Source: Isosphaeraceae bacterium EP7
GTDB lineage: Bacteria; Planctomycetota; Planctomycetia; Isosphaerales; Isosphaeraceae
Length of the DNA stretch: 64,000 nucleotides
NCBI GenBank assembly: GCA_038400315.1
Contig: CP151667.1
Span: forward strand, 744,001-808,000
Direction: 5' to 3'
Positions within the stretch are counted from its first letter, which is position 1, and each line of letters opens with the position of its first letter. Positions 1-6,809 of this stretch are shown piece after piece. Under the pieces are notes generated by a model. It had not been told where the DNA came from, searched no databases, and was given only the letters and a program-made list of their open reading frames with translations. Position numbers and translations under genes: made by a program.

Positions 1-3000
1 CCTGGCGGTCGAGGCCGCGCCGACGGCACTGCGGCCGCGGATCTGGAGGACGTCGACGGCGACGTGCTGGATGCGCGGAAGCAACGAGGCGCGGATCGCG
101 GGCCAGGTACGCTCGCTACGCTCCCAGGCGGCGGCCCCATCTCGTTCGTAGAGGTCGATGTAGGTGTGGCCGTAGAAGTGAGTCAGGTGCTGGACGTGGA
201 ACCCGTGCTGCGACCACCGCCTGATCGACTCGTCGACCATCAGGCGGGCCTCGCGCGGCTCGTCGCCGGCCAGGCGGGCGATCGCGCCGGGGTAGGTGCC
301 CAGCGTCGATTCCATATAGCGATCGCCACGGTCGCGTGCCTCCTTGTCCAGGGCGGCGAATCGACGCGTCAGATCGGCGATCTCGCCTCGGTAGATCCGC
401 GCCCAAAGACCGAAGATCTGCGTCGTGTCGAGTTCCCAGACGACCCCAGTGCAGTGGTCGCGGAAGATCGCCTCGGCGGCGTTGAGCTGGGTGATCGCGT
501 CGCCGAATCGGCCCGCCATGTAATAGGCGGCACCGGCGGAGAGCGTCGCCATGCCCAGCGCGTGCGGCTGCCCCGAGACACGGGCGACCTCATGCGACAG
601 CGCGATCAGCTTCGCCGTGCGCCGCCCGGTCGACCGCCCCAGGCAGGCCGAGTGCACCCCCTCCCAGGCCAGCGAGAGTGCGATCCGGGTGGGCTCGCCG
701 GCGTCGAGGGCCAGCCTCAGGCTTCGGGTCTGGAAGTAGGAGCCCTGGATGACGTCGACGACGCTGATCCCCACCGCCACGGCGCGGGCGATGTCCACCC
801 TGGCAAGGTTCGCCGGAGGGATCTGCTCGGCGTTCCTGGGCCGGTAGCCCATGCCCCTGGCCGCCAGAAAGACCCGCTCCTTGATGAGCTGGAGCAGCGC
901 CCGCTTGGGGGTCTCGGGCCGTCTCAGGCCGACCCGGTTCAGCACGTCGTCGAAGGCGGCGAGCCCCTCGTCGATCCGGCCGCTGATGAGGAACTGGTAG
1001 GCGGCGCGGGCCTGCAAGTCGTGCACGCTGGCCGGGCCGGCCTCGGCCGCCGCGAGCAGGTACATTTCGCCGGCCTCGGACCCGCGTCCGGCATTGGCCA
1101 GCGCCCCGGCGAGCTGGACCCGCAGCGCGGGGGCTCCGGGGTCATCGGCCGGCGTCAGGTCGAGAGCACGCCGGTAGAGCGTCGCGGCGCGGTCGAAGGC
1201 CAGGGCCTGGACGGCGTCGGCCGCGGCCCTGATCACATACTCGGCGGCGGAGCTTGCCCTGCCCCCGCCGGCGAAGTGCACCGACAGCGTCTCGGGATCG
1301 GCCTCGCCGGTTTCCTCCAATTCCAGAGCGAGCTTGAGGTGCCAGGCCTCGCGCTCGGAGGGGGTTAACCGCCGCTCGACCGTCTCGCGGATCCGGTCGT
1401 GATAGGCTTCGACCACGTCGAGCGCGCCCGGGCCGCGGCCCCGCACCAGGTTGTTGGCCCGCAGGAAGGAGAGCGCGGCGAACCCGTCCGTGCCGAGGCC
1501 CGCGACGCGGCAGGCCGAGGTCTGGCGGACGGGCTGGCCGGCGACCGAGATCGCCTCCAGCAGCCGCCTCGGGCCCGCGGGCAGCTCGCGGACCCGCCGC
1601 CAGAGCACCTCATCGAGGCTGAACTCGCCGCTGCTGGCCAGGCTGTCCGACAGCTCGCCCCCGCCGGTGATGAAGTGCGACAGCTCGTAGACGAAGTAGG
1701 GGCTGCCCCCCGACTCTCGCGCGATCAGATCGACCAGCGGTTCAGGGGCGGGCCCTTCGCGGGCCAGCAGGAGCCTGGCCAGGTCGCGAGCCTCGTCGCC
1801 CGTCAGCGCCTCGACCTCGATCTCGAACCGCTCGGGACTCGGGGCGCCATCCTCGCCGCCGGCACGCAGGCGGATCAGGCAGGGGCTGGCCGAGGCGTAC
1901 TCGCTGCGGAAGCAGCAGAGGAGCAGCAAGGCGGGCGCATCGGGGGGCCGCAGCAGGTCCGAGAGCAGGTCGGCACTGTCCAGGTCGCCCCACTGGAGAT
2001 CGTCGATGTGGAGGATCAAGGGGCGGCGGTCGCCGATCCGTCCCATCAGTTCCCGCAGCGCGGCGAAGGCCCTCCGCCTCAGTTCTTGCGGGTCGGGGGG
2101 CTCGGCCGATCGGTGCGGCGCGCCGGCCACGGCCTCGATCCGACGGAGTACCGGGAAGACCCTCGCCAGCGTGGCGATGTCGCGCGGCAACAGGGCCTCG
2201 ACCTCCAGCCTGGAGAGTCGCCTGAGGAAACGGCTGAGCGAGTCGACCAGGGCGTCGAGCGCCTTGTACGCCACCGATTCTTGCTCGAAGCAGCGCCCCT
2301 CCAGGACGACGACGTCCGCGTCCCGCAGGCCGCCGAAGAAGTGCTGGACCAGGGCGCTCTTGCCGACCCCCGACCGGCCCTGCACAAAGGCGACCACCGC
2401 GCGGCCTCTCCGGGCCCCTTCCAGCGATTCGGCCAGGGCGGCCAGGTGCGGGCCCCGCCCCAGGAACGGCCGGCTGCCCTGTCGCGTCTCCGCACCGGTC
2501 GCCGTGGCGGGACCGGCGGCCCCCAACCTCCGGAGCACCTCATCCCCCTGGGGGCGGGTTTCAGGGACCCGGCTGAGCAGTTCCATGCAGAGCGAGCAGA
2601 GGTCATCGGGCAGGCCCTCGACCAGCCTGGACGGCGGCTGCGGGTCCTCTCGCACCTTCCGGGTCAGCACTTCGAGGCTGCTGCCGATGAACGGGAGTCG
2701 GCCGGTGAGCGCGGCGTAGAGCATCACTCCGACGCTGTACCAGTCGCTAGCAGGCGTGAGCAAGCCCCCGGCGGCCTGCTCGGGCGACATGTACCCGACC
2801 GTGCCGACGACGTGGTTCTCGGTCGAATCCGGATCGTCCAGCCCGCTCAGCTCGGCCGCCACGCCGAAGTCGAGCACGACCACCCGGCCCCCGCGCTCGA
2901 CCATGACGTTGGACGGCTTCAGGTCGCGGTGCAGCTTTCCCAGGGAGTGCAGGGTCGAGATCGCCCCGGCCAGTTGCCGCATGGCCGATCGCAGACGTGC

Positions 3001-3576
3001 GACATCCAGGGCGGCGAGGGCCTCGGGAGTCGTAGGGGTGGCGCCCGCCGACGTCGGAGCGTTTATCGGCTCCGTGCTCGCGAAAAACTCGCGACGCGTC
3101 GTGCTCGGAGGTGCGGCCCCGGGCGCCGCCGGTTCGCCGCGAATCGCCCCGGTGTCGGCGACGGTCGAGGAGGGTGTCGTCGCCGACTCCGTCGAGGAGG
3201 GGGATGCGCCCAGCGAGAGCGTCTCGACCATCGGCCTGATGATCCCGCCGTCGAACGACCATTCGGCGGGCCGGACGAAGTCGAAGAAATTGGTGCCGTG
3301 CACCAACTCCATCGTGAAGAACCAGCGGTCGCCGTCGGAGAACAGTTCCCAGAGCCGGACAAGATTGGGGTGGACGACGTTCTCGAGGACCCGGAATTCC
3401 TTCTTGAACCAGTAGAGTGCCGACGGGTCGAAGTCGCGGATCGTCTTCAGGGCGACGACCAGGTCACGCTCGCGGTCGATCGCCTCGAAGACGACGCCCA
3501 TCCCTCCCTCGCCGAGCCGCCTGAGGACCGTGAAACGGTCATTCCCGGCGAATTCAAACGAGGGTGTACGGTCCAT
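1..3576 (-). CDS. Serine/threonine protein kinase with AAA ATPase and TPR-like regions (3' end outside window)
   Basis: At least 1192 codons, open to the left edge. It begins at ATG 3576 behind a GAGGAT ribosome site. An N-terminal Hanks-type kinase is visible: glycine loop LGEGGMGVV near residue 21, ATP lysine in VALK near 44, HRDLKPSN near 215, DFG near 237 and SPEQ in the activation segment. A low-complexity insert of roughly 80 residues splits the kinase lobes. A second nucleotide site, GRSGVGKSALV, lies near residue 400 and opens an AAA/STAND-type ATPase. The rest is helical, leucine- and alanine-rich sequence typical of TPR arrays. Proteins of this plan are thought to be cytoplasmic regulators in which the ATPase-TPR part senses a ligand or partner. 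The substrate is unknown. The call is firm for kinase and ATPase; the C-terminus is not seen. Confidence 0.93.
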   Translation of the reverse strand, partial: MDRTPSFEFAGNDRFTVLRRLGEGGMGVVFEAIDRERDLVVALKTIRDFDPSALYWFKKEFRVLENVVHPNLVRLWELFSDGDRWFFTMELVHGTNFFDFVRPAEWSFDGGIIRPMVETLSLGASPSSTESATTPSSTVADTGAIRGEPAAPGAAPPSTTRREFFASTEPINAPTSAGATPTTPEALAALDVARLRSAMRQLAGAISTLHSLGKLHRDLKPSNVMVERGGRVVVLDFGVAAELSGLDDPDSTENHVVGTVGYMSPEQAAGGLLTPASDWYSVGVMLYAALTGRLPFIGSSLEVLTRKVREDPQPPSRLVEGLPDDLCSLCMELLSRVPETRPQGDEVLRRLGAAGPATATGAETRQGSRPFLGRGPHLAALAESLEGARRGRAVVAFVQGRSGVGKSALVQHFFGGLRDADVVVLEGRCFEQESVAYKALDALVDSLSRFLRRLSRLEVEALLPRDIATLARVFPVLRRIEAVAGAPHRSAEPPDPQELRRRAFAALRELMGRIGDRRPLILHIDDLQWGDLDSADLLSDLLRPPDAPALLLLCCFRSEYASASPCLIRLRAGGEDGAPSPERFEIEVEALTGDEARDLARLLLAREGPAPEPLVDLIARESGGSPYFVYELSHFITGGGELSDSLASSGEFSLDEVLWRRVRELPAGPRRLLEAISVAGQPVRQTSACRVAGLGTDGFAALSFLRANNLVRGRGPGALDVVEAYHDRIRETVERRLTPSEREAWHLKLALELEETGEADPETLSVHFAGGGRASSAAEYVIRAAADAVQALAFDRAATLYRRALDLTPADDPGAPALRVQLAGALANAGRGSEAGEMYLLAAAEAGPASVHDLQARAAYQFLISGRIDEGLAAFDDVLNRVGLRRPETPKRALLQLIKERVFLAARGMGYRPRNAEQIPPANLARVDIARAVAVGISVVDVIQGSYFQTRSLRLALDAGEPTRIALSLAWEGVHSACLGRSTGRRTAKLIALSHEVARVSGQPHALGMATLSAGAAYYMAGRFGDAITQLNAAEAIFRDHCTGVVWELDTTQIFGLWARIYRGEIADLTRRFAALDKEARDRGDRYMESTLGTYPGAIARLAGDEPREARLMVDESIRRWSQHGFHVQHLTHFYGHTYIDLYERDGAAAWERSERTWPAIRASLLPRIQHVAVDVLQIRGRSAVGAASTAR

Positions 3577-3903
3577 CAAGCGATCCTCATCGGCGACGCC
3601 CAGCCCCGGGCGCGGGCGTGACCTCTCGGCTCGTTGCCGGGCGCAAAGAGTATGGCACCGATCGCTCATTCTCGCAATTGAACCCGCCCTGGAAGTGGGC
3701 TTCCTCGTTTGAACGATCGGAGCGTTCCCAGCTCGCCTCGGTCGGTTCGGCCTGAACCGCTTACGTCGATCGGGGACGTCGATTCGCTACGTAAACGCAA
3801 TCATTCATTGTGGATGCTTCGTTCCGGCCCGTCTTCGATGGGCCGCCAATCGCCCCAGCCTCGGGTCGCCGGGCTTGATTTCGGTGATGCCAGGGAGGCA
3901 GCC
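3577..3903. other. Intergenic region between kinase gene and SDR remnant
   Basis: No coding frame here is supported. The stretch must carry the promoter of the leftward kinase gene and formerly that of the rightward dehydrogenase remnant. It is somewhat less GC-rich than the genes around it, and no convincing operator or hairpin was seen. Confidence 0.5.
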
Positions 3904-4082
3904 ATGCCGCGCGTCCTGAACGGTCAGATTGCGCTCGTGACTGGGGCGGCTCGGGGACTGGCCGTGTCCCCGCAGACTGGTTCGGGCAGGAGGGGGCGAA
4001 GGTCGTGATCGTCGACATCCATGTCGACGCCGTCCGGCGGGCCTTCGATCAGATTGAGTGCGCGGGCGGGGTTTCCGGCGAG
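3904..4082 (+). pseudogene. Truncated short-chain dehydrogenase/reductase (SDR) remnant
   Basis: ATG 3904 follows a good GGGAGG ribosome site and encodes an SDR start: a lead-in to the beta-1 strand ending in LVTGAARGL, the cofactor glycine motif. After about 20 codons the reading shifts. From 3981 a different frame continues with FGQEGAKVVIVDIHVDAV, which is the alpha-1/beta-2 part of the same Rossmann fold. Part of the first helix is therefore missing, with a net frame change, and similarity stops near 4080 where the decarboxylase gene's 3' end begins. About 200 residues of a normal SDR are absent. It is a clear gene remnant, not a functional enzyme. Confidence 0.8.
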
Positions 4083-4088
4083 GGGCCG

Positions 4089-4829
4089 TCAGAGGGGCTG
4101 CGACCTGGAGGTCTCGTTGGCAGAGACCTCCAGGTCGCAGCGGACCAGCTTGCAGCCCAGCAGTTTGACGACCGGCAGGAGATGCAGGGGGTCGTTCTCG
4201 CTGCCGGGCTCGATCGTGCATGATCCGTCCCCCTGCCAGACCTGGGTGTTGCTCATCGACCAGCCAGTCTCGAGCAACTCGGATACGGAGGGGGGGGCGT
4301 CCCTCGTGGGGCTGGGGATGATTCTCAGAGTGAGATAGTCCAGGGTCGAGTCGGGGGCCTGGACCGGCTCGCCGACGGGTCGCAGGCTGCCCGAGGCGAG
4401 CGGCAGGCCCTCGGGTCGCTGGAGGGTGCCGGCGATCGTTCCGGCATCGTCGAAGGAGATGGCCGCGATCTTCTTGGGGAACCCGCCCATCTCCCGGCCC
4501 GCGGCCATGGCCACGTCGGTGGTGACGTAAAGGTAGGCGGCGTACTGGATCGGCTTGCCCTGATAGGTGGCGTGCAGATAGAGCACGACCTCGCGATACG
4601 GCCCCAGCGTGCTCTCGGGGTAATCGGCGAAGACGAGGCCCGCCACCGGCGGGTCGGTCAGCTCGGCCTGCGCGGGCAGGAGCCCGGCGGCGGAGGGGCC
4701 GTCGGTGACATACTCGAAGACGATCATGCTCGCGCCGCGATAGCGGTACGGAGGCTTCGGGTAGAGCGGGCCGCTGGACGGCATGGAGAAGCCGAGGTGA
4801 TCCTTCGTCAGCATCCCGCGCAGTCCCAT
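4089..4829 (-). CDS. Acetoacetate decarboxylase (ADC) family protein
   Basis: A 246-residue protein of the ADC fold. REMGGFPKK, around residue 140, matches the segment carrying the Schiff-base lysine of acetoacetate decarboxylase, and the acidic YPEST-GPYREVV stretch precedes it as in the family. Members decarboxylate beta-keto acids or catalyse other Schiff-base chemistry, so the substrate is open. ATG 4829 was chosen because AAGGGG sits at correct spacing; an upstream GTG at 4859 is possible. The gene is divergent from the cyclooxygenase-like gene with about 225 bp between starts. Its last 15 or so codons lie inside a perfect 19-bp hairpin (4097-4141), suggesting the natural C-terminus was altered or shares sequence with its terminator. 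Confidence 0.88.
   Translation of the reverse strand: MGLRGMLTKDHLGFSMPSSGPLYPKPPYRYRGASMIVFEYVTDGPSAAGLLPAQAELTDPPVAGLVFADYPESTLGPYREVVLYLHATYQGKPIQYAAYLYVTTDVAMAAGREMGGFPKKIAAISFDDAGTIAGTLQRPEGLPLASGSLRPVGEPVQAPDSTLDYLTLRIIPSPTRDAPPSVSELLETGWSMSNTQVWQGDGSCTIEPGSENDPLHLLPVVKLLGCKLVRCDLEVSANETSRSQPL
4097..4141. terminator. Perfect 19-bp inverted repeat overlapping the 3' end of the ADC gene
   Basis: The left arm 4097-4115 and right arm 4123-4141 are exact reverse complements around a 7-nt loop. The hairpin ends about 5 bp before the ADC stop codon, so it is coding for the leftward gene. It is probably an intrinsic terminator that became part of the reading frame; no clear U-tract follows on either strand. 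Confidence 0.55.
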
Positions 4830-5054
4830 CGTCGGCCCCTTCGGTTCCAGCCCGGGCACGATCGATCACCGATCGGGCCGCATCGCCGGGCCATCGTAGC
4901 AGCGGCGACGAGGGCGGAGAAGGGCCGACCTGGCGGAATCGGGACGTGAGCCGAATGCAGGGCGCAGGCCATGCTTGCTCGATGTTCGCCCGCCTGTTAC
5001 CGTCCCGTCTGACCTCCTGCGAGGAAGTTTGGTCTCGTCCCTGGGGAGAATTCG

Positions 5055-6809
5055 ATGAGCGTCGCGGTCGAGGGTGAAGAGCATGTCCTCCGGCTGATCC
5101 GGGGGTTCCGCTCGGCCATCAAGTCGCTCGGGCTGTCCAATGTCATTGAGTCGATCATCCTGACCCGCTTCGGCCCGTTATGGGCCGTCATCCAACGGGT
5201 GAAGCCCCTAAGGGCCTACGCCAACAAGACCTTGATCGATCGCGCGATCTGCAAGATTCCCCCCAGGCCCCACGCGCTGAGCACGCTGGCCGACTACACT
5301 TCGTGGTCGTCTCTGACCGACCGGACGTACAGCGCCCGCCACCTGCCGCCGGCCCCGAAGGGGGGCGCCGCCCTGCCCGCTTCCAGGGAGGTCGCCGAGC
5401 TGTTCCGCAGGCCCGCCGGCGCGATGAAGATGGGCAAGTCCTCGGTCCTGTTCACCTACTTCGCCCAGTGGTTCACCGACGGGTTCCTCCGCACCGATTA
5501 TTCCAACCCGCTGAAGAACACGTCGAATCATGACATCGACCTGAGCAACCTCTACGGCCTCGACGCCGCGTCGACCCGCGCCCTGCGGTCGCACTCCGGC
5601 GGCAAGCTCTCCAGCCAGTGGATCAACGGCGAGGAGTATCCGCCCGATTTCTACAAGGACGGTGTCGAAGACCCCGCCTTCAAGGACCTGCGGATGGCGG
5701 CCTTGCTGAGGGCCCTGACGATGATGGCGGGCGGCCCCGAGGCGTCGCCCAGGCCCGCGAGCACTCCCGTCGGCGGGGATCACCCGGGGAGCAGGCCGGC
5801 CGACGCCTCGTCGCGGGCCACCCTCTTCTCGGGCTTCCGCGACGTCCTCGCCCGCAAGCCCATCGACCCGCGGATGTTCGCCATGGGGGGGGACCGGACC
5901 AACTCGCAGGCCGGCTTCACGGCGTTGAACGTGCTGTTCCTCCGCGAACACAACCGGGTCTGCGACGTCCTGGCCGCGGCCTATCCGGCCTGGGACGACG
6001 AGCGACTCTTCCAGACGGCTCGCAATATCCTCATCGGCGTGCTCAGCAAGATCGTCATCGGCGAATATATCAATCATATTACCCCTTACAATTTCCAGTT
6101 CTACCTCCAGCCGGGGGCCTTCGAGGGCTGCCGTTGGTATCGACAGAACTGGATGACCGTGGAGTTCAACCTCCTGTATCGCTGGCACGGCCTGACGCCC
6201 GACTCCTACTCGATCGGCGGCCGCGATTACTCGCTCAAGGAGACCCTGTTCAACAACGAGATCCTCGTGAGCCGGGGCCTGAAGCCGATGCTGGCCGACG
6301 CCTCGGCCCAGCAGGCCGGCCAGATTGGCCTGCGCAACACGCCCGAGCTGCTCCTGCCCGTCGAGCAGGGGAGCATCGAGCTCGGCCGCGCGGCCCGGCT
6401 CCGCAGCTACAACGATTACAGGGTGATGTGCCGGTTGCCCAGGGCGAGGGGCTTCGACCAGATCAGCGCGGACCCGCAGACGCAGCAGGCCCTGAAGGAC
6501 CTCTACGGGACCGTCGATCGCGTCGAATATTATCCCGGGATCTTCGCCGAGAATACGGTCAGCGGGGCGGTCCTCTCGTTCGTCATCGGCCGGCTGGTCG
6601 GCGTCGACGCGTTCTCGCAGGCGCTCACCAACCCGCTCCTGTCCGGCCGCCTCTACAACGCCGAGACCTTCACCCGCAAGGGCGTCGAGATCATCGAGTC
6701 GACCTCGACGCTCGCCGATGTACTCGAACGCAACACCCTCACGTCGTCCGACACTCGAAAGATCACGATGACGTTCGACTCGCGGGCCTCCGCCCCCGCC
6801 AGGGCGTAG
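5055..6809 (+). CDS. Cyclooxygenase-like animal-type haem peroxidase/dioxygenase
   Basis: 584 residues, ATG 5055 behind GGGGAG. Nearly the whole length follows prostaglandin H synthase. Residues 80-98 match the SW-(x)-TR-LPP segment; LREHNRVCD (297-305) and WDDERLFQTARNILIG (about 313-328) are near-identical to COX; EFNLLYRWH (370-378) supplies the proximal haem ligand His378 and the equivalent of COX Tyr385 (Tyr375). Tyr338 and Tyr345 fall at COX Tyr348/Tyr355, Ser521 near Ser530, and Arg63 is a plausible Arg120. In the distal helix, AQWFTDGF (137-144), Gln138 is kept but Asp142 stands where the distal His is expected. There is no signal peptide and no EGF domain. Likely role: oxygenation of a fatty acid at a membrane surface. 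Activity and substrate are inferred. Confidence 0.92.
   Translation: MSVAVEGEEHVLRLIRGFRSAIKSLGLSNVIESIILTRFGPLWAVIQRVKPLRAYANKTLIDRAICKIPPRPHALSTLADYTSWSSLTDRTYSARHLPPAPKGGAALPASREVAELFRRPAGAMKMGKSSVLFTYFAQWFTDGFLRTDYSNPLKNTSNHDIDLSNLYGLDAASTRALRSHSGGKLSSQWINGEEYPPDFYKDGVEDPAFKDLRMAALLRALTMMAGGPEASPRPASTPVGGDHPGSRPADASSRATLFSGFRDVLARKPIDPRMFAMGGDRTNSQAGFTALNVLFLREHNRVCDVLAAAYPAWDDERLFQTARNILIGVLSKIVIGEYINHITPYNFQFYLQPGAFEGCRWYRQNWMTVEFNLLYRWHGLTPDSYSIGGRDYSLKETLFNNEILVSRGLKPMLADASAQQAGQIGLRNTPELLLPVEQGSIELGRAARLRSYNDYRVMCRLPRARGFDQISADPQTQQALKDLYGTVDRVEYYPGIFAENTVSGAVLSFVIGRLVGVDAFSQALTNPLLSGRLYNAETFTRKGVEIIESTSTLADVLERNTLTSSDTRKITMTFDSRASAPARA

Follow-up and report, generated by a model that had tools for sequence, protein, structure and literature searches.

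The closest characterized relative of the protein described here is the linoleate 10S-dioxygenase of Nostoc punctiforme (10S-DOX), which was reportedly described by Brash et al. in 2014. According to the excerpted text of a review, this enzyme forms 10S-hydroperoxides from oleic and linoleic acids and uses Tyr342 as its catalytic tyrosine (PMC13049297). The same excerpts set F143-T-D-S-F of 10S-DOX against F205-T-H-Q-F of cyclooxygenase (COX), report that the His207 place differs among COX, 8R-DOX, and 10S-DOX, and match COX Val291, Ser530, Gly526, and Tyr504 with a conserved Arg, Ala487, Ile483, and Phe of 10S-DOX (PMC13049297). A distal Asp is thus already published for 10S-DOX (PMC13049297). 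The window analyzed here, i.e., the whole stretch of 64,000 nucleotides, carries a gene whose product (P0001), judged by its sequence, is a member of a bacterial 10S-DOX-like heme dioxygenase family.

An intact gene for a COX-like protein

The gene occupies positions 5055 to 6809 on the plus strand as an unbroken frame of 584 codons that opens with ATG, and GGGGAG at 5043 to 5048 is a possible ribosome site. In a Pfam scan of the 584-amino-acid product, An_peroxidase was the sole family named (E = 2.6e-48); an NCBIfam scan of P0001 named no family, and Pfam gave no match to an EGF-like domain, unlike in COX. Human COX-2 was the top match among PDB sequences (E = 1.2e-68), followed by COX-1, and the dioxygenase family profile matched COX-2 with an E value of 1.7e-103. 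The frame is intact, third-position GC is 0.91, and relatives at 44 to 61% identity are present in 7 other genomes of the window's taxonomic family, which together rule out a frame artifact or chance open reading frame (ORF). Within its own genome, An_peroxidase was found at a single locus, as two stretches within the dioxygenase frame.

The AlphaFold2 model, built from the window protein and 42 relatives, had a pLDDT of 85.6 and a pTM of 0.88, with residues 230 to 249 as the only stretch below a pLDDT of 50. When this model was compared with solved structures by VIA-align, the 29 top structures were all COX-1 or COX-2 (Z, 38.5 to 40.2; 2.3 to 3.0 Å over 475 to 497 residues; 30 to 31% identity), other members of the superfamily ranked below them from a Z of 30 downward, and Foldseek likewise placed COX first. 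The likeness to vertebrate COX first proposed from the letters of the DNA is therefore borne out by the Pfam family, by the best PDB match, and by the fold. The 50 top structure rows comprised COX, alpha-dioxygenases, and animal-type peroxidases, with no alpha+beta barrel of the dye-decolorizing peroxidase (DyP) type in a list that is itself no test for that fold. The model has helices within residues 27 to 66 (5133 to 5252, plus strand), which the profile alignment sets against the membrane-binding region of COX.

Active-site residues and their COX counterparts

The register was read from two alignments to COX-2, one pairwise and one through the family profile, both of which are gap-free over the distal helix and the YRWH motif. 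The COX residue numbers are those that we take to apply and are partly also given in the review text. In both alignments, FTYFAQWFTDGF of P0001 aligns ungapped with FAFFAQHFTHQF of COX-2, so that Gln138 corresponds to Gln203 and Asp142 to His207. This distal helix motif, Q138-W-F-T-D142 (5466 to 5480, plus strand), is also visible in the family rows and has Trp139 at COX His204. The Y375-R-W-H378 motif (6177 to 6188, plus strand) falls on YHWH of COX in both alignments and in the family rows, which makes Tyr375 the counterpart of Tyr385 (the radical tyrosine), His378 that of His388 (the proximal heme histidine), and Trp377 that of Trp387. Both alignments also pair Tyr338 with Tyr348 and Tyr345 with Tyr355. 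The sequence-only reading had made the same assignments for Tyr375, His378, Tyr338, and Tyr345 and had described a retained Gln138 with Asp142 in place of the distal His, and all of this holds; neither alignment puts a His at the distal position or moves Tyr375 or His378 off register.

Two further assignments of that reading had to be given up. It had equated Ser521 with Ser530, but the profile alignment, ungapped there, places Ala519 at Ser530, 10S-DOX has Ala487, and the column holds Ala in all 118 family rows with a letter; the Ala of P0001 and Ala487 of 10S-DOX are the Ala of a common D-A-F-S motif. The same alignment puts Val515 at Gly526, and its register at Ser530 and Gly526 agrees with that in the excerpted review text (PMC13049297). 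The sequence-only reading had also offered Arg63 as Arg120, which the pairwise alignment allows; the profile gives Ala64 at that place, and only 18 of 119 family rows have Arg in the Arg63 column. Both Ser521 as Ser530 and a conserved Arg63 as Arg120 were therefore rejected on the profile alignment and the family column counts. Among the channel residues said to be kept, then, the counterparts of Tyr385, Tyr348, and Tyr355 stand, and those of Ser530 and Arg120 do not. All of 119 rows have Arg at the Arg71 column, for which the profile alignment shows no counterpart in COX. Absent from the earlier reading was Arg281 (5895 to 5897, plus strand), which takes the place of COX Val291 in both alignments.

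A COX fold, COX-1/2 as the closest solved relatives, and kept counterparts of Tyr385, His388, Tyr348, and Tyr355 could all belong to a true cyclooxygenase, i.e., a bis-dioxygenase with a dead peroxidase half that releases a PGG2-like hydroperoxide. Such an enzyme would need a polyunsaturated substrate of the C20 type, to which nothing in the data points; COX Gly526, Ser530, and Arg120 are not kept, and the closest characterized relative is a mono-dioxygenase, at 42% identity versus about 30% for COX. We therefore regard a true cyclooxygenase as very improbable.

Conservation of the distal Asp across the family

To be counted as family members, ORFs had to score at least 370 bits with the family model, which yielded 120 distinct ORFs in the fetched loci. 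Seventy-seven of these rows came from a genome-contig scan with the pattern FAQ[WY][FL]TDG and a second pattern (354 stretches and 270 relatives, with 80 loci kept); because the scan pattern contained the Asp, these rows cannot test it. The other 43, the window's own copy included, came from genome searches without motif bias. Two of the genome searches supplied loci from the best 30 matches each, and the family total is at least 120 ORFs.

Asp occupied the distal place in all 120 family ORFs read, the 43 free of motif bias among them. The Gln138 column was Gln in 120 of 120 rows, the next position was Trp in 118 and Tyr in 2, and Phe140 and Phe144 of the distal helix were kept. Tyr338 was present in 120 of 120 rows, and Tyr375, Trp377, and His378 were present in 119 of the 119 with a letter. 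The Arg281 column was less uniform: 112 rows have Arg, and Thr and His each occur in 4. A tblastn search of 72,556 plasmid records returned 20 with a relative, 12 of which cover at least 80% of the query. The eight of these 12 that were fetched (from Paracoccus yeei, Sinorhizobium, Rhizobium etli, Methylobacterium, two Acaryochloris, and two Ruegeria plasmids) are 33 to 42% identical to the window protein and have the Asp in eight of eight cases; Arg281 is kept in six, with Asn in both Ruegeria proteins. The Asp is thus a clade feature, as the sequence-only reading had proposed to check, and is the signature of a widespread bacterial dioxygenase family, of which 10S-DOX is the one characterized member. 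Its presence throughout the relatives rules out a private oddity of this genome or a sequencing error.

The A2 family model, which contains the window protein, gave the window ORF 772 bits and its members 357 to 879 bits, and the best other family reached 144; the lowest scorers were one fragment and the Ruegeria plasmid proteins. In the 45 genomes of the window's taxonomic family, the gene is present in eight (its own and G397, G399, G400, G407, G408, G409, and G424), all with FAQ[WY][FL]TD; five more had distant peroxidase-like matches, and 32 had none. Among 392 genomes sampled across the phylum, only the window's own gave a strong match, and the 56 remaining genomes with matches had part-length ones with E values of 1.2e-26 or weaker; the gene is thus patchy.

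Some members depart from the common pattern. A branch of four ORFs from the order of Smaragdicoccus (L174, L208, L209, and L210) keeps the Asp but shows His at the Arg281 column and either Trp or Phe at that of Tyr345; the three that have a letter at the Ser521 column show Thr. In G409 and G408, the dioxygenase frame (L066, 1447 to 3756, minus strand; L067, 118 to 2427, plus strand) bears a hydrophobic-rich N-terminal extension of ~220 residues, possibly a fusion with a membrane domain; the L067 frame and L238 2042 to 4354 (plus strand) are one gene.

Placement relative to 10S-DOX

Among the 24 candidates listed, one cyanobacterial protein (in loci L198 and L232) alone fits the published 10S-DOX throughout, at each point checked. 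It has 542 amino acids with a Met start, FTDSF at 143, Trp84/Asn88, Ile306, Thr310, Tyr342, Gly469, Ile483, Asp486, and Ala487, and Phe at the Tyr504 place. P0001 is 42% identical to the protein of L232 (243 of 579 columns). The closest relative of P0001, at 59% identity, is a protein from a Singulisphaera MAG, in which L063, L082, and L234 are one contig.

A tree of 50 rows and 510 columns, built in careful mode, had a 100/100 branch that parts the dioxygenases and COX-2 from six planctomycete peroxidases. The window protein pairs with the Singulisphaera protein (99/85) and lies within the dioxygenase family, outside the 10S-DOX clade; the 10S-DOX type falls in a mostly cyanobacterial set of 15 rows (100/98). 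Planctomycete sequences form three groups, the relations between which are without resolution in this tree. The COX-2 branch has a length of 4.04, and the point at which COX joins is unsure.

A proposed mechanism

We think it probable that P0001 is a fatty-acid heme dioxygenase of the 10S-DOX family, working through a Tyr375 radical and releasing its hydroperoxide to a separate heme enzyme. For P0001 we infer the activity, the role of Asp142 and Arg281, the substrate, the position of O2 addition, and the partner acting in the host. His378 and Tyr375, both required for an oxygenase, are kept. The heme held by His378 would react with trace hydroperoxide at its distal face, where Asp142, aided by Gln138 and probably Arg281, would stand in for COX His207. 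The ferryl heme would then oxidize Tyr375, and the resulting Tyr375 radical would abstract hydrogen from an unsaturated fatty acid of the C18 type, to which O2 would add; the hydroperoxide would leave P0001 and be used by the separate heme enzyme. In COX, the radical is made by oxidized heme formed with peroxide (PMC13049297), and His207 may help to ionize the hydroperoxide (PMC7494923). A B-class DyP has a distal Asp/Arg pair in which the Asp deprotonates H2O2, and this Asp is held responsible for a poorly oxidizing Compound I (PMC6153280; these three sources as excerpted). Such an arrangement could suit an enzyme that needs oxidized heme just to start Tyr375 and that spares its own product.

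A profile comparison with bacterial heme peroxidases aligned Arg281 with the Arg in the GDxR motif of those enzymes, so that it looks like an old peroxidase feature lost by COX. This comparison began after the distal helix, and the joint alignment is gapped there; the Asp142 place is presumably equivalent to the bacterial peroxidase His in WGQFxDHD. The Asp/Arg pairing is not strict, given the eight Thr and His rows and the Asn of the two Ruegeria plasmid members. The alignment of Arg281 with the GDxR Arg, its presence in 112 of 120 rows, and the H2O2-deprotonating Asp of a B-class DyP (PMC6153280, in the part available) would also be in keeping with a peroxidase proper, in which Asp142 and Arg281 form a DyP-like acid-base pair and peroxide reduction is the main job. 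However, Tyr375, Tyr338, Phe140, and Phe144 are all kept, the Arg is missing in some family members, and 10S-DOX, which shares these residues, works as an oxygenase. A main role in peroxide reduction is thus unlikely.

The fatty-acid dioxygenase reading also differs from the earlier one in what it makes of Asp142, which had been taken as a crippling loss that explains release of a hydroperoxide. A COX-like oxygenase half, a changed peroxidase site, and a probable hydroperoxide product all survive from that interpretation; the evidence for the product is that 10S-DOX has the same Asp and that many relatives have heme neighbors of the hydroperoxide type. The data do not support the Asp as a crippling loss behind that product, and a crippled peroxidase is not the best account of Asp142. 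Its invariance throughout the rows read favors a residue with a function, and fungal CcDOX1, which keeps the distal His (His-217), still has a 10(S)-hydroperoxide as its main product (PMC9579011, as excerpted), which weakens any argument from the missing His to the hydroperoxide.

Gene neighborhoods and likely heme partners

Neighbors were counted within four called genes of the dioxygenase in the 80 pattern-scan loci. P450 genes were found in 51 loci, desaturases in 41, alpha/beta hydrolases in 24, catalase-related genes in 7, and Tle1-like lipases in 5, whereas 22 loci, some of them on short contigs, had neither a P450 nor a catalase-related gene in that range. The gene names were assigned from a small number of examples scanned with Pfam, in which two P450s and one desaturase were over the cutoff and two hydrolases were under it (21 to 23 bits versus 26.3). 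Twelve genus-level labels, with many close kin, account for the 51 P450s, which therefore do not represent 51 independent events. The P450 gene is mostly the immediate upstream neighbor of the dioxygenase gene and shares its orientation, mostly in actinobacteria (51 of L082 to L161; also L088, L093, and L099), and many of these loci have a divergent fatty-acid desaturase gene and a downstream alpha/beta-hydrolase-like gene.

P450s that run on hydroperoxides instead of O2 and reductant are marked by loss of the I-helix threonine. Among the 51 aligned P450s, all of them neighbors of the dioxygenase, the I-helix has Glu-Ser or Glu-Asn in 46, Glu-Thr in 3, and a gap in 2; the heme-thiolate loop F..G.H.C is present in 47 of 51. 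The actinobacterial P450, with this threonine mostly lost, may therefore be a hydroperoxide isomerase. Self-sufficient P450s that run on hydroperoxides occur in the COX and fungal cascades (PMC13049297, as excerpted). On the Sinorhizobium and R. etli plasmids, the gene before the dioxygenase encodes a P450 that retains Glu-Thr.

Catalase-related genes form the other kind of heme neighbor, and we take the 10S-DOX-type gene and the gene for a catalase-related hydroperoxide lyase to be neighbors. In L232, a Tle1-like lipase gene precedes the 10S-DOX-type gene and a catalase-related gene comes after it. The row of Tle1-like lipase, dioxygenase, and a 393- to 399-amino-acid catalase-related protein appears in cyanobacterial loci L232, L233, L239, L094, L101, and L111, with one extra called frame within it in L101; it reads as a putative sequence of fatty-acid release, oxygenation, and cleavage. 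The dioxygenase gene also has a catalase-related gene next to it in two Scytonema loci and on the Paracoccus, Methylobacterium, and two Ruegeria plasmids. On the two Acaryochloris plasmids, no neighbor was annotated as a P450 or catalase-related gene, and the one neighbor tested had no seed match. A neighboring gene for a catalase-related hydroperoxide lyase is a genomic habit of the 10S-DOX type rather than a defining trait of the enzyme family. Taken together, many family neighbors are likely hydroperoxide-using heme enzymes, either catalase-related proteins or P450s mostly without the I-helix threonine.

The window locus has a different setting. Divergent from the dioxygenase is an acetoacetate-decarboxylase-family (ADC) gene identified by Pfam (4089 to 4859, minus strand), and beyond it a large gene, a putative protein kinase by eye (40 to 3621, minus strand), is 61% identical by tblastn to a gene beside the dioxygenase of L234. 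Between them, at 3709 to 4100 (plus strand), is what looks by eye like a broken short-chain-dehydrogenase-like remnant, its start resembling LNGQIALVTGAARG in one frame and its continuation lying in another. To the right of the dioxygenase are genes that, by eye, look like those for a sugar transporter and a sugar kinase. In L234, the ADC gene, the large gene, and the dioxygenase recur rearranged (62%, 61%, and 60% identity), with the ADC copy two genes from the dioxygenase and a catalase-related gene beside it, three genes from the dioxygenase; the latter's product scored 24.3 bits against Pfam Catalase, for which the cutoff is 25.

Partner seeds (P450, catalase-related, hydrolase, lipase, and desaturase) had no tblastn match in the 64-kb window at an E value of 1e-3, nor did seed tblastn find a catalase-related gene next to the window dioxygenase. 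The genome has two catalase-related genes elsewhere (the one scanned scored 22.0 bits against Pfam Catalase, under the cutoff), as well as one P450 locus and five loci over the Pfam cutoff for fatty-acid desaturase, all elsewhere. Substrate and partner could thus come in trans. In L243 of the same genome (7647 to 10099, minus strand), a catalase-related gene (374 amino acids) overlaps the next gene, carboxymuconolactone-decarboxylase/AhpD-like by eye, by four bases.

The absence of seed matches in the window, together with an ADC-family gene that adjoins the dioxygenase here and lies two genes off in the closest relative at 62% identity, could point to a heme protein that applies the same radical chemistry to another lipid substrate, perhaps one tied to the ADC-family neighbor. 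Yet in the frames called across the window, the 80 pattern-scan loci, and 8 further loci, the ADC gene was found only here and in that one relative, and the recurrent neighbors elsewhere in the family are of the lipid or hydroperoxide type. We hold a different lipid substrate to be highly unlikely, and a 10S-DOX-like fatty-acid dioxygenase remains our preferred reading.

Implications and comparison with known systems

More tentatively, and at somewhat less than even odds in our judgment, the family may represent a prototype, broad among bacteria, of the COX/oxylipin cascade. Asp, in most members accompanied by Arg where COX has Val291, would do the work of the distal His, and the hydroperoxide would be fed to an unfused partner: catalase-related in cyanobacteria, alphaproteobacteria, and a Singulisphaera, and a P450, perhaps a hydroperoxide isomerase, in actinobacteria, a few cyanobacteria, and rhizobia. 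If this is true, the unfused dioxygenase and P450 would mirror, in split form, the fungal DOX-P450 fusions as well as COX with thromboxane or prostacyclin synthase. If the proteins are active, fatty-acid hydroperoxide chemistry would extend to planctomycetes and many actinobacteria. In the open-license literature, outside which most subscription papers fall, we found no report of an unfused bacterial DOX-P450 pair or of such chemistry in planctomycetes or actinobacteria. The story of a broken COX is replaced by a testable one, with an invariant Asp as the distal catalyst in a COX fold. Because the neighbors vary between catalase-related proteins and P450s while the dioxygenase is constant, the family offers material on the origins of COX, the fungal dioxygenases, and their downstream heme partners. 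Its breadth and its alternating heme partners are worth following; of the by-products, the pairing of DOX with an unfused P450 in bacteria is the most interesting.

P0001 and 10S-DOX have in common the Asp at the His207 place, the Gln and Trp before it (for 10S-DOX, as in the matching protein of L198), the Tyr and His of YRWH, the Tyr348 counterpart, the Arg at the Val291 place, and the Ala at the Ser530 place. P0001 differs at the Tyr504 place, where its Tyr493 replaces the Phe of 10S-DOX, at Ile483 of 10S-DOX, which is Val515 in P0001, and in an insert within about residues 215 to 268 that is poorly modeled at 230 to 249; unlike the 10S-DOX type, it has no adjoining catalase-related gene. 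With vertebrate COX-1/2, the aspirin targets, it shares the fold (Z of about 40) and counterparts of Tyr385, His388, Tyr348, Tyr355, Gln203, and Trp387, whereas COX His207, His204, Val291, Ser530, and Gly526 are replaced by Asp, Trp, Arg, Ala, and Val, respectively, and the conserved Arg120 is missing. Plant alpha-dioxygenases belong to the same superfamily (Z, 27.0 to 27.7; 20% identity in the structural alignment) and also use a radical mechanism (PMC13049297, as excerpted). The fungal fatty-acid dioxygenase-P450 fusions (LDS/Ppo and CcDOX) are likewise heme dioxygenases that form hydroperoxides by a Tyr radical; they have a membrane domain of their own (PMC13049297, in the part available) and are a single chain with the P450, whereas many bacterial relatives of P0001 have the P450 as a neighbor gene.
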